35,251 nucleotides of DNA from Dysgonomonas sp. Marseille-P4677 (GTDB taxonomy: Bacteria; Bacteroidota; Bacteroidia; Bacteroidales; Dysgonomonadaceae), in NCBI RefSeq assembly GCF_016652235.1, contig NZ_JAEPKU010000036.1:1-35251 (forward strand). Direction: 5' to 3'. The notes under the pieces are model-generated. The model made no database searches. It was given only the letters and a program-made list of their open reading frames with translations, and had not been told where the DNA came from. Each line of letters starts with the position of its first letter. Within the stretch, counting starts at the first letter, position 1. Below are positions 17,642 through 24,954 of this stretch, in pieces. Both the position numbers and the translations under genes were made by a program.

Positions 17642-19519
17642 ATGAGAAAACTTTTATTTTTAAACATTCTTTTTCTATTATCATTTGTCATAAATGAAAT
17701 TTTTGCAGCTACACCTCGTCCCGAATATCCTCGTCCTCAGTTTGAGCGAACAGATTGGATAAATCTAAACGGCGAATGGACATTTGAGTTCGATTTTGTA
17801 GGGTCGGGCTTAGATAGAGGCTATAGCAGTGCAGCAAAATTTGATAAAAAAATTATAGTTCCATTTGCACCTGAAAGTAAATTATCGGGAGTAGGGTATA
17901 CTGATTTTATCAATCATATATGGTATCAGAAGAGCATTACCGTTCCGTCTAATTGGTCAAACAAGAATATTCTTCTAAATTTTGGTGCAGTATATTATAC
18001 ATCGGAAGTATATATTGATGGAAAGTTTGTTGGGCGTCACTTTGGTGGAAGTTCATCTTTCTCATTCGATATTACCAAATTTGTGGAAGCAGGGAAAACC
18101 CACAGCCTTGTGGTTTATGCATCCAGCGATGTTAGAACAGGTAAACAGTCGGCAGGAAAGCAATCTTTGCAATATGCCTCTCACGATTGTGACTATACCC
18201 GTACAACCGGTATTTGGCAAACTGTTTGGATGGAAGCCGTAAATCCATTCGGGCTGAAACGGACTCAGGTTATAACTGATATTGACCAGAAGCAGATAGT
18301 TATTCATCCTCAATTCTATAAAGAGAATAATCACTCGCTTAAAGTAATACTTAAAGATGGAGATAAGGTCGTTAATACTCAGAATGTAAAGGCTAGTAAT
18401 AATAGTATTATCGTAATTCCGGTTAAGAATATGAAAACATGGAGTCCCGAAAGTCCTTTTTTATATAATTTGACTTATCAGGTTTTAGATCAAAAAGGAG
18501 CTGTGCTGGATGAAGTAAATTCGTATGTCGGAATGCGCAAAGTACATATCGAGGGTAATAAAATCTTTTTAAATAACGAACCATATTATCAACGGCTGGT
18601 CCTCGATCAGGGCTTTTATCCCGATGGAATATGGACTGCACCTTCGGATGAAGCATTGAAGAATGATATTGTACTATCGATGCAGGCCGGATTTAATGGG
18701 GCTCGCCTTCATCAAAAAGTATTTGAAGAACGATTCTATTATTGGGCCGATAAGCTGGGTTATATAACTTGGGGTGAGAGTGCAAGCTGGGGCATGGATG
18801 CTAACGATATTGAGGTGGCAAGAAATTTCTTGGCCGAATGGTCTGAATGTATAATACGCGATAGAAATCATCCTTCATTGCTGATATGGACACCAATGAA
18901 TGAGCAGTGGTGGCCCGATAATGTGCAATATCCTAGATTTGCCGAAGACCTTTATAATGTAACCAAACAACTAGACCCTACTCGCCCTGTTAATAATTCA
19001 AGCGGAGGTCAGCATATAAAGACTGACATCTGGACGGTACATAATTATGAGCAGAATCCTGAAAAACTTAGAGATATAATTTACAAAGACGGGGTGTTCT
19101 TCCAAACTCCTATGATGACAAAGAAGAAATCGACCAACATAGGATTTAATGATGTGAAAGATGTCACTAAATATATTTTCCCATTATACGACGGCAAGAT
19201 GCCTTATGTCATCGATGAAGTAGGAGGTATCAAATGGGTAAAAGATCAGGAAAAGCAATTGAAAGATTCAAGAACAGAATCGTGGGGATATGGAGAAGCT
19301 CCTAAGTCGATGGAGGAATTCTATACCCGTCTCGAAGGGCAAATTGATGCCGTACTGTCTCTTTCTAAATATGTTTGGGGATATTGTTATACCCAATTGA
19401 CAGATGTTGAACAAGAGCAGAATGGTGTTTATTTTTATGATCGTTCCTCGAAATTTGATATGAAGCGGATTCATTCTATTTTTTCAAAAACGCCGGATCA
19501 AGTAAAACAGGTGGATTGA
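17642..19519 (+). CDS. GH2 family glycoside hydrolase (beta-galactosidase/glucuronidase-like)
   Basis: A 625-residue retaining exo-glycosidase with a signal peptide (1-23), predicted periplasmic. The sugar-binding jelly roll lies at about 28-200 (PRPQFERTDWINLNGEWTFE), an Ig-like domain at about 205-298, and the TIM barrel from about 300 (VGMRKVHIEGNKIFLNNEPY). Acid/base Glu421 is in LIWTPMNEQWW and nucleophile Glu526 in PYVIDEVGG. The motif GYCYTQLTDVEQEQNGVYFY near the end is typical of compact GH2 enzymes. There is no C-terminal extension, so it is shorter than LacZ. Beta-galactosidase, beta-glucuronidase, beta-mannosidase and alpha-arabinopyranosidase activities all occur in GH2. As last gene of the PUL it would trim imported oligosaccharides. 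Confidence 0.93.
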   Translation: MRKLLFLNILFLLSFVINEIFAATPRPEYPRPQFERTDWINLNGEWTFEFDFVGSGLDRGYSSAAKFDKKIIVPFAPESKLSGVGYTDFINHIWYQKSITVPSNWSNKNILLNFGAVYYTSEVYIDGKFVGRHFGGSSSFSFDITKFVEAGKTHSLVVYASSDVRTGKQSAGKQSLQYASHDCDYTRTTGIWQTVWMEAVNPFGLKRTQVITDIDQKQIVIHPQFYKENNHSLKVILKDGDKVVNTQNVKASNNSIIVIPVKNMKTWSPESPFLYNLTYQVLDQKGAVLDEVNSYVGMRKVHIEGNKIFLNNEPYYQRLVLDQGFYPDGIWTAPSDEALKNDIVLSMQAGFNGARLHQKVFEERFYYWADKLGYITWGESASWGMDANDIEVARNFLAEWSECIIRDRNHPSLLIWTPMNEQWWPDNVQYPRFAEDLYNVTKQLDPTRPVNNSSGGQHIKTDIWTVHNYEQNPEKLRDIIYKDGVFFQTPMMTKKKSTNIGFNDVKDVTKYIFPLYDGKMPYVIDEVGGIKWVKDQEKQLKDSRTESWGYGEAPKSMEEFYTRLEGQIDAVLSLSKYVWGYCYTQLTDVEQEQNGVYFYDRSSKFDMKRIHSIFSKTPDQVKQVD

Positions 19520-19602: not shown

Positions 19603-20037
19603 TTATGAGATGGCAATTTTTTTCACTTTATCTTCAATAGTTTTCATCTGTTTTGGTAATGTAATTTGTAGAATGCCGTTTACCTGTGAAGCTGATATAT
19701 TTTCAGTATCGATGTTTTCAGGAATTGTAAAACTGCGTATAAATGAAGATTGCTTGAATTCGCGACGCAATATTTTATTGTTATCATCTTTTTCTTCATT
19801 TTCTACTTTACTTTCAGCAGATATTCTAAGGATTTCTTTTTCTATCTCTATTTTTATATCTTCCTTATTGAATCCCGGAACCGATAGTTCTATACTGAAA
19901 GCTTTTTCGTTTTCAGATACATTTGTAGCAGGGAGATCTCCATTAACGAATGGGTTAAATACATCGTCATTTACAAAATTGAAAAATGTAGGAAAAAAAC
20001 TTCCGCTTCTGTCGAATCTTCTAATTTGATTTTTCAT
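19603..20037 (-). CDS. hsp20: Hsp20/alpha-crystallin small heat-shock protein
   Basis: A 144-residue small heat-shock chaperone, ATP-independent, holding unfolded proteins in the cytoplasm. The N-terminal arm (MKNQIRRFDRSGSFFPTFFN) is followed by the alpha-crystallin domain at about 38-135, with VPGFNKEDIKIEIEKEILRI, ADS-like strand EFKQSSFIRSFTIPENI and the conserved NGILQITLPK. The C-terminal IxI-type tail is not distinct. Length is normal. It is a single gene, convergent with the PUL and sharing its terminator. Upstream it has a perfect AGGAGG ribosome-binding site, unusual for this phylum, and a cluster of TGCAAA repeats that may be an operator. Heat or stress induction is likely from the family, not shown by the sequence. 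Confidence 0.95.
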   Translation of the reverse strand: MKNQIRRFDRSGSFFPTFFNFVNDDVFNPFVNGDLPATNVSENEKAFSIELSVPGFNKEDIKIEIEKEILRISAESKVENEEKDDNNKILRREFKQSSFIRSFTIPENIDTENISASQVNGILQITLPKQMKTIEDKVKKIAIS

Positions 20038-20290: not shown

Positions 20291-20318
20291 AAAAAAGGGA
20301 ATCTTTTCGATTCCCTTT
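20291..20318 (-). terminator. Terminator of the bactofilin/actin-like operon
   Basis: A 10-bp perfect stem (AAAGGGAATC 20294-20303 with GATTCCCTTT 20309-20318, loop TTTTC). On the minus strand it is followed by a T6 run, 93 bases after the stop of the second bactofilin gene. Confidence 0.8.
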
Positions 20319-20410
20319 CTCCCAAAGACAAAATTGATCTATGTATTGTCATTGGTTATTAGTTCTTTTTCAATGTAGAAAATGAAGTGATTTTTAATAG
20401 TTTCTAAATA

Positions 20411-20980
20411 CTACCACCAATTATCTGTTTGATTTGTTGGTTCGAGATTAACCGAACTTTGCTTTCTAACTACCTGAGGTTCTTTATTCATATTATGGGC
20501 ATTCTGAAAAATAATAGAATCCTTCTTTACTGTTCCTAACTCTTTGGCTAAATCAGGTAGCGTATCAGTAGATTCCCTTTCTGAATAATTTTTAGCCTCT
20601 GCAATTTTTAGAGATAATAGTGATACTTTTAGATCAGGATTTAACATAACCTTTCCATTGATTATACAACCGGCTTCCATTATGGAAGTTTTAGTAATGA
20701 TTGTACCTTCTATAATAGCACTTGCTCCTAGTTGTAAGTCTTCAGCGCAAATTATATCTCCAATCACTCTACCTTCAATTATACAGCGTGTGGCAGTTAT
20801 GTTACCAATAATGCGGGCGCTGGCACTAATAGTAAGAGTATCTTCTATATAAAAATTACGTTCGTGCTCAGCGTCTAAAAGTAAGGAACCCAAAACAACC
20901 GTATCTCCTCCAAGTTCTACGATTTTCGGTGCTGTTACTTTAGTCTCTAAAGTACGGACTTTTCGTTTAAGCAAATACAT
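20411..20980 (-). CDS. Bactofilin-family polymer-forming protein (long form)
   Basis: A 189-residue bactofilin. Residues about 22-120 form the right-handed beta-helix core of short rungs with the hydrophobic/Gly rhythm (ISASARIIGNITATRCIIEG, RVIGDIICAEDLQLGASAII, EGTIITKTSIMEAGCIINGK). It has a 20-residue basic head (MYLLKRKVRTLETK) and a polar, low-complexity tail of about 60 residues ending NQTDNWW. Bactofilins assemble nucleotide-free filaments and act as scaffolds at the membrane. The tail, absent from the partner at 22064, could bind a client. It is the last gene of a three-gene operon, 20 bases after the actin-like gene. No peptidase or cell-wall enzyme, the common bactofilin neighbour, is nearby. 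Confidence 0.85.
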   Translation of the reverse strand: MYLLKRKVRTLETKVTAPKIVELGGDTVVLGSLLLDAEHERNFYIEDTLTISASARIIGNITATRCIIEGRVIGDIICAEDLQLGASAIIEGTIITKTSIMEAGCIINGKVMLNPDLKVSLLSLKIAEAKNYSERESTDTLPDLAKELGTVKKDSIIFQNAHNMNKEPQVVRKQSSVNLEPTNQTDNWW

Positions 20981-21000
20981 ATTTTCTTATTTAAACTAAA

Positions 21001-22021
21001 TTATTCGGAAATATTAGTCACTACAGTAGTTGCATTGCCAATATCTATTCCTACAGCAGATTTCATTCTTCCATGTCCTGCTCGCAACGAATTGAGAGCA
21101 TATCCTCTGCTGGCTACTGTTTCGGGATTATCTAAGACTATTATTTCAGTAAAGTTTCCGAACTCTTCTTTAAAGCAATCAATCAGTTCTTGATAATACA
21201 TCGCACCTCCACACATGTATATTCTGTTGGTTTTTTGCCAAATTAGAGTCGTTGATGATGTTGCGTAAGCTAGGCGATATAACTTCTTGATAATAAGTTT
21301 GGATTACATTTTTTCTCAATTCCCGTAAATCTACGTTCTGACGATTTAGAAAAACATAACCTCGCTGAAAAGCTTCATCGAATTGGTGAGCATTTCTGAG
21401 CTCTAAATAATACTTATTCTTCAATTCGTTAATCATCAAATTTACAGCATAACGAATCCCATGTGTGCTGATCATAGTCTGTTCTATAATTCCCGAATCT
21501 GTACTAAGTATAGATTCAAATGTACCAAATCCGCAACTGAAAACAAAGAAGCTTCCGGATACCGGCGGTTCTCCTTTTCGTATTGCAATAGTACATCCTA
21601 CGATTTCGGGCATTACTTCTACTTTTTGTACTTCCAAAATTACTTTCTTTATCGTTCCAGCATTGTGTGTTGACGCATCATAATTTAATATATGAGTTCG
21701 CTGGAAAAACTCTACTGCCTTATCCTTATAGATATAATAAGTGGAATAAGGGAACCCTGTTGTGATTGTTATCGGCTGTTCTACTTGATCTTGTATTAAC
21801 AACATAGATGCATTTGCTAGTAGTTGATAATCCGTATCATCAGGGGATGAGTTGATTAATTTGTGTGGAAATTGACCTTCATTCAAAGCAAGATCCCCAC
21901 AGATATACCATTTATTGGCATGTTGAATCTTTAATCCATGAAGCAAATCTTTCGATGTTTGCGACAGGACAGTGTTGTTGCTTTCAACCAAACTGGGAAA
22001 AAACCGGGTTTCAAGAATCAT
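21001..22021 (-). CDS. ParM-like actin-fold ATPase, circularly permuted, with one frameshift
   Basis: As given, two frames: 22021-21179 (280 residues) and 21216-21001 (71 residues). Dropping one A from the six-base run at 21231-21236 joins them into about 339 residues. Visible blocks are FFPSLVE (7-13), ICGDLALNEG (40-49), YQLLANASMLLI (65-76), ITTGFPYSTYYIYKD (86-100), a degenerate phosphate-2 loop FSCGFGTFE (161-169; Ser replaces the usual Asp), the adenosine loop IYMCGGA (267-273) and DNPETVASRGYALN (297-310), all as in ParM/StbA-type proteins. The phosphate-1 motif VGIDIGNATT, normally at residues 3-15, is at 323-332, just before the stop. A stop codon two codons upstream of the first ATG rules out a hidden N-terminal copy. 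The gene lies between two bactofilin genes in an apparent operon (gaps of 42 and 20 bases). The frameshift may be a sequencing error or real inactivation. Filament formation is inference. Confidence 0.75.
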
Positions 22022-22063
22022 AGTTTAAGAAGTTAAATTTATAAAATATAGGGGAATTAACCT

Positions 22064-22384
22064 TCAGGAAGTTGAGGGCTCCATTGAAATAATCCCTTCG
22101 TATGTTGCACCGTGCTCTAATGTTAATATCTTCGCGTCGAGTTCTCCTTTTATTTTACCAGTGTTTTTTATAGAAATAGAGTTGACTGCAGATATATTTC
22201 CTTCGATATACCCAAACACCACAAGATCAATGGCTTTTACGTTGCCTTGAACTACACCATTTGTGCCAATTACGACAACATTTGCGTCTTTTATATCACC
22301 TACAATAGTACCGTCAATGCGGATGTTATGGGTTTTTTCTATAGATCCTCGAAGTACAAAGCTTTCACTAACAATACTTGGCAT
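22064..22384 (-). CDS. Bactofilin-family polymer-forming protein (short form)
   Basis: A 106-residue bactofilin consisting of almost nothing but the beta-helix core: short repeats with the bactofilin rhythm (IRIDGTIVGDIKDANVVVIG, NGVVQGNVKAIDLVVFGYIE, GNISAVNSISIKNTGKIKGE, LDAKILTLEHGATYEGII). Head (MPSIVSESFVLRG) and tail (MEPSTS) are short. It is the first gene of the operon, 42 bases before the actin-like gene. It would polymerise without nucleotide, probably with the longer bactofilin at 20411; co-assembly and a link to the actin-like protein are inference from gene order. Polymer-forming cytoskeletal is the usual database label for this family. Confidence 0.9.
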   Translation of the reverse strand: MPSIVSESFVLRGSIEKTHNIRIDGTIVGDIKDANVVVIGTNGVVQGNVKAIDLVVFGYIEGNISAVNSISIKNTGKIKGELDAKILTLEHGATYEGIISMEPSTS

Positions 22385-22521
22385 TTGAGAGGAAAAATCA
22401 AAAAATCCTTGCTCTAGATTCTCTTTTCGGGCATATATATATTATTAAGAATAATTATATCGCTAGAGGCATTCAATGCTGATAGCTTTACTGAAACCGC
22501 TTTTAAAAGAAATTATATATG

Positions 22522-23934: not shown

Positions 23935-24954
23935 TTAATGTGCACTCTCAAATTCTTCGAGGAATCGTTTATCGTTTTCAGAGAACATACGAAGATCTTT
24001 TACTCTATATTTAAGGTTTGTGATACGTTCTATACCCATCCCTAAAGCATATCCGGTATATAGCTTACTATCGATCCCGCAGTTTTCCAATACATTCGGG
24101 TCTACCATTCCACAACCAAGAATTTCTACCCAACCTGTATGTTTGCAGAACGGACAACCTTTTCCTCCACAGATATTACATGAGATATCCATTTCGGCAC
24201 TAGGTTCTGTAAATGGAAAATAAGATGGACGCAGGCGTATTTTAGTATCTGCACCAAAAAGTTCTTTTGCCACAAATATCAGTACCTGACGCAAATCGGC
24301 AAAAGACACGTCTTTATCTATATATAATGCTTCTACCTGATGAAAAAAACAGTGAGCACGGTATGAAATAGCCTCATTCCTGTATACGCGTCCCGGGCAA
24401 ATGATGCGGATAGGTGGTTGTTGTTTCTCCATTACGCGGGTTTGCACCGATGAGGTATGCGTGCGTAGCAGTACTTCGGGGTTGCGTGCTATGAAGAATG
24501 TATCTTGCATATCGCGGGCTGGATGATCGTCAGCAAAGTTGAGCGACGAAAATACGTGCCAGTCGTCTTCTATTTCAGGGCCTTCGGCGATTGAGAAACC
24601 CAAACGACGGAATATATCGCATATTTCTTTTTTTACGATTGATAATGGATGACGTGTTCCTAAAGCAATAGGAGCAGCAGTACGGGTAAGGTCTATGATA
24701 TCATTACCTATCTGTACATTTTCAAGCGATTCTTTCAATTGATTGATACGTTCCTGAGCCTTTTCCTTTAGCTCGTTCAATTTCATACCTACTTCACGCT
24801 TTTGTTCGGCGGCAACATTGCGGAAGTCATTCATCAATGATGAAACTTCTCCTTTCTTGCTCAAGTACTTGATGCGTAGTGCTTCTATCTCTTCAGCTTT
24901 ACTCGCTTTCAGGTTGTCGATCTCCGACAATAGCTGGTTAATCTTGTCAATCAT
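23935..24954 (-). CDS. pheS: Phenylalanine-tRNA ligase alpha subunit
   Basis: A 339-residue catalytic alpha subunit of the alpha2-beta2 phenylalanyl-tRNA synthetase, which charges tRNA-Phe in the cytoplasm. Residues 1-85 are the N-terminal coiled-coil arm that binds tRNA. The class II core follows, with GTRHPLSIVKKEICDIFRRL, motif 2 (ICPGRVYRNEAISYRAHCFF, then HQVEALYID) and motif 3 (YTGYALGMGIERITNLKYRV). The Cys-rich stretch CNICGGKGCPFCKHTGWVEI is common in PheS of several phyla. Length is normal. pheT is not adjacent; in this phylum the two subunits are often encoded apart. It has its own promoter box (24988-24995) and a strong terminator. Confidence 0.98.
   Translation of the reverse strand: MIDKINQLLSEIDNLKASKAEEIEALRIKYLSKKGEVSSLMNDFRNVAAEQKREVGMKLNELKEKAQERINQLKESLENVQIGNDIIDLTRTAAPIALGTRHPLSIVKKEICDIFRRLGFSIAEGPEIEDDWHVFSSLNFADDHPARDMQDTFFIARNPEVLLRTHTSSVQTRVMEKQQPPIRIICPGRVYRNEAISYRAHCFFHQVEALYIDKDVSFADLRQVLIFVAKELFGADTKIRLRPSYFPFTEPSAEMDISCNICGGKGCPFCKHTGWVEILGCGMVDPNVLENCGIDSKLYTGYALGMGIERITNLKYRVKDLRMFSENDKRFLEEFESAH

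Follow-up and report, generated by a model that had tools for sequence, protein, structure and literature searches.

Here we describe an actin-like gene and the two bactofilin genes that flank it in a 35,251-nucleotide stretch of DNA from Dysgonomonas sp. Marseille-P4677 (contig NZ_JAEPKU010000036.1, positions 1 to 35,251), referred to below as the window. The gene runs on the minus strand from 22021 down to 21001, split over two frames (Table 1); no further copy was found in the genome. After the Met, the open reading frame (ORF) from 22021 opens with ILETRFFPSLVE, the sequence that comes after phosphate-1 in ordinary ParMs, and upstream of the start codon a single in-frame codon is preceded by a stop. 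The phosphate-1 motif, VGIDIGNATT, is instead the last recognisable element of the gene; to our knowledge, the phosphate-1 hairpin opens every known actin, Hsp70 and hexokinase-like ATPase. A preliminary description of this DNA had pointed to these features, to the bactofilin flanks and to a likeness to ParM, and had read them as a circular permutation. Each of these points holds, the ParM label through matches to PHROG 691, ALP_N and the ParM Dh-cParM1, and the permutation itself is supported by motif order in homologues, by conservation of the motif and by a structural model of a relative, L029. We propose that the gene probably belongs to a family of ParM-type actins in the Bacteroidota that are circularly permuted by nature and would work with the adjacent bactofilin(s). 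By its sequence, and with support from the model, the chain starts just past the phosphate-1 place and runs through phosphate-2, the adenosine motif and a linker to the phosphate-1 hairpin.

Table 1. Features of the permuted actin gene and its bactofilin neighbours, listed in the direction of transcription (positions in the window).
Feature	Position	Strand	Evidence
Upstream bactofilin, 106 amino acids	22064..22384	-	PF04519, E 5.4e-21
N-terminal piece of permuted actin gene, ORF of 280 amino acids	21179..22021	-	ORF; PHROG 691; family profile at 21224-22012
Glu in PEIVG, where ParM has its catalytic Glu	21605..21607	-	Read from sequence; E in 42/42 relatives
Phosphate-2 element FVFSCGFGTFE, usual first Asp replaced by Ser	21515..21547	-	Read from sequence
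C-terminal piece in the other frame, ORF of 71 amino acids, with adenosine motif, linker and phosphate-1 hairpin	21001..21216	-	Family profile
Adenosine motif CGGA	21202..21213	-	Read from sequence; GGG in 38/42 relatives, first two G invariant in 42/42
Phosphate-1 motif VGIDIGNATT, C-terminal	21025..21054	-	Read from sequence; last recognisable element of the gene
Downstream bactofilin, 189 amino acids, beginning 20 bases past the stop of the C-terminal piece	20411..20980	-	PF04519, E 4.7e-15

A trivial explanation would be that this order is the product of a broken or misassembled gene, and the window gene is indeed split: the family profile matches 21224-22012 in one frame and, with its positions 261-337, 21007-21237 in the other (E 2.1e-38), so that the frame switch falls at the junction of the two matches, at about 21224-21237. 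However, intact relatives of 338-341 amino acids in one ORF exist and have the same order. They occur in 35 other genomes, not counting fragments at contig ends in G396 and G604, and three Mucilaginibacter metagenome-assembled genomes carry one intact copy each at ~60% identity; there are three intact copies in genome G017 (two also found under the name D. mossii DSM 22836) and two in its genus mate G014. The order is therefore not an artefact of the frame break, an explanation that these relatives refute and to which we give practically no weight. The 339 residues described earlier are a composite of two frames. Furthermore, differences between either piece and four Dysgonomonas relatives are mostly silent (proportion of nonsynonymous differences, pN, 0.07-0.11; of synonymous differences, pS, 0.65-0.84, near saturation), and with pN so far below pS in both pieces the frame change is either a lesion recent relative to this divergence or a mistake in the assembly, which consists of 278 contigs. 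A programmed frameshift was considered and is not favoured, because the relatives read in one frame. No repeats of at least 20 bases were found around the cassette (window 20300-22500).

The family is widespread but patchy across the Bacteroidota. By profile search, 24 of 395 phylum genomes contain a member (own genome and one 43-residue fragment counted), as do 8/126, 19/126 and 2/128 genomes of three orders, all in samples that overlap; among the closest 61 genomes three hold the family, own genome included. Most inner branches of the family tree (30 of 40) have good support, and in it the window's piece clusters with the other Dysgonomonas copies.

Motif position was tabulated for 42 distinct relatives at loci of up to 9,500 bases. 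All of them carry a C-terminal phosphate-1 motif (44/44 when L009 and L011 are added), which starts at residue 320-325 in 41 and at residue 295 in L111, a sequence whose N-terminus is cut by a contig end with the loss of ~29 residues. The family alignment A3 has 42 rows and includes L009 and L011, but neither the window piece nor the near-duplicates L003 and L019. In every row the D, both G, the N and the last T of the motif are unchanged, and a tail of 6-23 residues follows; such a conserved position, together with the invariant residues, is not expected by chance, and the earlier question of whether homologues conserve the C-terminal motif is answered in the affirmative. Homologues with an N-terminal phosphate-1 motif were also sought, and in none of the 41 rows whose N-terminus is complete did residues 1-70 contain one. 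Since the in-frame stretch upstream of the start likewise held no such motif in the rows examined, a hidden N-terminal copy was rejected.

Profiles of ordinary relatives place the remainder of the chain. PHROG 691 ('partition protein') matches residues 8-248 of the window's N-terminal piece from profile position 28 to 265 (E 1.9e-13) and residues 7-308 of L004 from position 27 to 319 of 329 (E 1.4e-21); all four members scanned match it (E 7e-19 to 8e-23), with starts at position 27 in L029, 47 in L023 and 49 in L013. Four of five ordinary plasmid ParMs match the same profile in a single stretch from position 3 or 4, and the fifth, L039, in two stretches. Similarly, the match to ALP_N (PF17989), which 37 of the 42 members reach at E<=0.01, begins at profile position 17 (L013), 18 (L023) or 20 (L029) and at position 1 in two ordinary ParMs. 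Throughout the 395 phylum genomes, all 12 ALP_N matches over the cut-off are family members starting at profile 15-21, with no ordinary-order protein among them; this search was not very sensitive, as it recovered only one of 14 controls, and that one below the cut-off. A wider PHROG 691 search did find one ordinary-order ParM with an N-terminal phosphate-1 motif (L124, G257:C42) in a Bacteroidota assembly. PHROG 691 also hits ORFs of the size of FtsA, Hsp70 and MreB in every one of 335 genomes and is thus a marker of actin-like ATPases generally, and a match from profile position 16 in G179 arises by reading through the stop upstream of the ORF. A search of the window's own genome with PF06406 (StbA_N) gave no match and is uninformative, its controls being silent too, and a PDB sequence search with eight sequences returned noise only.

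The element absent from the front can be placed at the end by rotation. We compared the family profile with a profile of ten plasmid ParMs (L039, L040, L080-L087), which unrotated scored 120.0 over 278 columns (family 21-313 vs ParM 58-393); with the first 20 ParM residues (L039 numbering) shifted to the end, the score rose to a peak of 129.3 over 303 columns and the match extended to family position 338, from the same start at 21. Cuts at alignment columns 36-84 gave 127.9-129.3, a cut at column 96 gave 124.3, and the others tested gave 66.6-120.1. After one rotation, then, the segments run collinear with their ParM parent. A match of FtsA profile positions 1-27 to the C-terminal residues 322-348 of L013, below the cut-off, is weakly consistent with this.

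The structure predicted for L029, a member 40% identical to a D. mossii copy, has the same fold as the actin parent. Its AlphaFold2 model (predicted local distance difference test, pLDDT, 90.0; predicted template modelling score, pTM, 0.90) ends in two strands at 321-327 and 331-336, the two blocks of the hairpin with pLDDT 91 and 85, and the linker from the old C-terminal end to this hairpin occupies about residues 313-320. The rest of the model aligns to ParM-type structures from chain residue 18 or later onwards (VIA-align); these alignments cover model residues 1-321 at most, with the hairpin predicted at 321-336. Residues 2-7 are assigned as a strand, and in actins the equivalent strand pairs with the second hairpin strand. 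We infer that the hairpin would return to the first sheet within its own subunit and restore the nucleotide site, which would put the new chain ends in the turn joining strands 2 and 3. A hairpin at a free end behind a linker could alternatively insert into the neighbouring subunit, in which case the permutation would be real but this strand swap would build the filament and not the protein's own active site. We consider the swap improbable, as the high-confidence model was obtained for a single chain, hairpin included, and residues 2-7 already form a strand in the monomer.

Several results nonetheless weigh against the permutation or against its extension to the window. The C-terminal piece has no match in PHROGs, neither piece has a Pfam match at E<=5, and ALP_N detected only 11 of the 24 family-holding genomes. 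Taken alone, the C-terminal columns 308-343 match ParM 16-31 at E 0.025 only, and columns 316-338 match the phosphate-2 region; by itself, then, the C-terminal segment is too short for identification. A prediction led by a D. mossii protein, with eight close sequences, failed at a pLDDT of 41, and the good model is that of L029, not of the window's own protein. The case for permutation is thus a cumulative one: phosphate-2 and the adenosine motif are already assigned, and the sole element missing from the front is found at the end.

The nucleotide site itself has changed in one respect. The first Asp of phosphate-2 is replaced in all 42 rows (S in 37, N in 3, G in 2), so that this ParM/ALP hallmark is absent from the family, while the catalytic-position Glu and the adenosine GG are kept throughout. 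We take the Glu of PEIVG to be the equivalent of E148 in R1 ParM and the lost Asp to correspond to D170; in ParM, the phosphate-2 Asp is required for hydrolysis. Because it is lost in every aligned member, the permuted actin is expected to bind nucleotide with slow or no ATP hydrolysis, and might form filaments that are stable and switch-like, unlike the dynamic ones of ParM. The same substitution would suit a nucleotide-binding switch that regulates bactofilin without forming filaments, and the moved ends could disturb filament contacts. This alternative, which overlaps our preferred explanation in everything except assembly, is possible but unlikely: the closest folds are filament formers (by structure titles), and the catalytic-position Glu and phosphate-1 are invariant.

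The proposed link to bactofilin comes from gene neighbourhoods. The two window bactofilins score 56.1 and 75.1 bits against a PF04519 cut-off of 27.9; elsewhere, bactofilins were identified with a profile built from this pair and relatives, partly confirmed by PF04519. Among 30 distinct loci read with their flanks, 24 have a same-strand bactofilin downstream, of which 4 overlap or touch the actin gene, 10 lie within 50 bases, 6 at 91-271 bases and 4 at 1.01-1.21 kilobases (kb); the window's gap was here measured from the first (N-terminal) piece. An upstream bactofilin is found in Dysgonomonas only (6/6 loci), and of the two flanks reported earlier it is therefore the downstream one that is conserved more broadly. 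Bactofilins multiply together with the permuted actin. Six Dysgonomonas genomes without the actin have one or two bactofilins each, and there are 4 in G000 (one cassette), 5 in G014 (two cassettes) and 7 in G017 (three cassettes). The bactofilin-actin-bactofilin cassettes of the latter two genomes lie at different places (L064 and L065 in G014; L061, L062 and L063 in G017), and their actins are ~84% identical to that of the window.

That the two genes are closely coupled and duplicate together suggests that their products are physical partners. Given this gene order and joint duplication, the permuted actin would work with the adjacent bactofilin(s), most likely through nucleotide-dependent assembly on or alongside membrane-bound bactofilin polymers. 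These polymers themselves use no nucleotide, and the actin would in this way control the place or timing of their formation, most probably for shaping the cell or its wall locally. Our best reading is of a nucleotide-controlled polymer or switch that would organise bactofilin at the membrane. More tentatively, though quite possibly, permuted actins and bactofilin may constitute a two-component cytoskeleton throughout the phylum, in which a slow or non-hydrolysing actin would confer nucleotide control on a nucleotide-free polymer. Some counts tell against the partnership and its role in shape. Six of the 30 loci, from two genera (L044, L046; L049, L052, L055, L060), have no downstream bactofilin in the stretch read, and for L049 that stretch stopped at 1.45 kb, where the contig ends. 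Neighbouring M23 peptidase genes are recognised as typical of bactofilins involved in cell shape (PMC10945521, from the portion of that paper accessible to us), and one lies directly upstream at only 3/30 loci (L045, L047, L048), with weaker M23 matches further away at three more. The BacA-LmdC bactofilin/M23 endopeptidase module described there shares the bactofilin cluster and, at those three loci, the upstream M23 gene; the same portion names no actin as a component.

At L045, L047 and L048 the bactofilin stands ~1.2 kb downstream of the permuted actin. A tetratricopeptide repeat protein is encoded between the two at L047, where L045 has a gene of the same length, and at both of these loci genes resembling an ATP synthase cluster follow (by reading).

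Among known systems, the closest matches include Dh-cParM1 of Desulfitobacterium hafniense (PDB 8x1i; PMC12270681), a chromosome-encoded ParM to which the permuted family aligns only from chain residue 23, so that the order of Dh-cParM1 is presumably ordinary. The partners of Dh-cParM1 are cParR, and the accessible part of its description mentions neither permutation, Bacteroidota nor bactofilin. The family is also collinear with the ParM/StbA plasmid actins (PF17989, PHROG 691) over ~270-300 residues past the first profile positions, and unlike them it is circularly permuted, has lost the phosphate-2 Asp, is linked to bactofilin and has no member in the plasmid collection. These best matches, PHROG 691 and Dh-cParM1, would suit a chromosomal ParM-type actin for DNA segregation with incidental bactofilin neighbours, which we hold to be quite improbable. 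Three tblastn queries of 72,556 plasmid records retrieved only five distant ones (all <26% identity, annotated ParM/StbA or PRTRC protein D, with ordinary order in the two checked), members sit on contigs of up to 4.3 Mb, and the downstream bactofilin recurs across loci and was duplicated along with the actin. The three queries thus gave no close plasmid relative of the kind a plasmid-borne parMRC would supply; ParR and parC were not searched for. A phage or plasmid gene was rejected, plasmids holding only those distant annotated proteins; a pattern scan of viral contigs and one query of phages found no relatives.

FcmB of filamentous cyanobacteria is likewise an actin related to ParM and encoded on the chromosome, and has a part in cell morphology (PMC12645912); that paper makes no mention of permutation or bactofilin; the NCBIfam FcmB model matched one of 22 members scanned (E 5.5e-4). 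To MreB, the bacterial actin for cell shape, the family's matches are weak (10/42 at E<=0.01, best 9.3e-5), and L029 and L013 score 15.3 and 13.3 bits against an MreB_Mbl cut-off of 27. The MreB profile matches separately in 395/395 genomes; the permuted actin is therefore an addition, and replacement of MreB was rejected.

We found no circularly permuted or bactofilin-linked actin in the accessible parts of the open-licence literature, including PMC7203096, PMC12645912, PMC12448750, PMC10945521 and PMC12270681. A conserved natural permutant would mean that the usual order of actin elements is not required, and would offer a clean test of the role of actin ends in filament contacts; it also supplies a candidate for an actin that serves bactofilins as a dedicated partner. 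The two claims are testable on a protein of ~340 residues, and AlphaFold2 predicts one family member with high confidence.

An anti-phage defence role was considered as well, and PADLOC gave no match for five proteins. Beyond the cassette, the window holds a glycoside hydrolase-like gene (17642-19519) and an HSP20 chaperone gene (19603-20037, PF00011) on one side and a phenylalanyl-tRNA synthetase alpha chain-like gene (23935-24954) on the other, the first and last of these named from reading their translations only.
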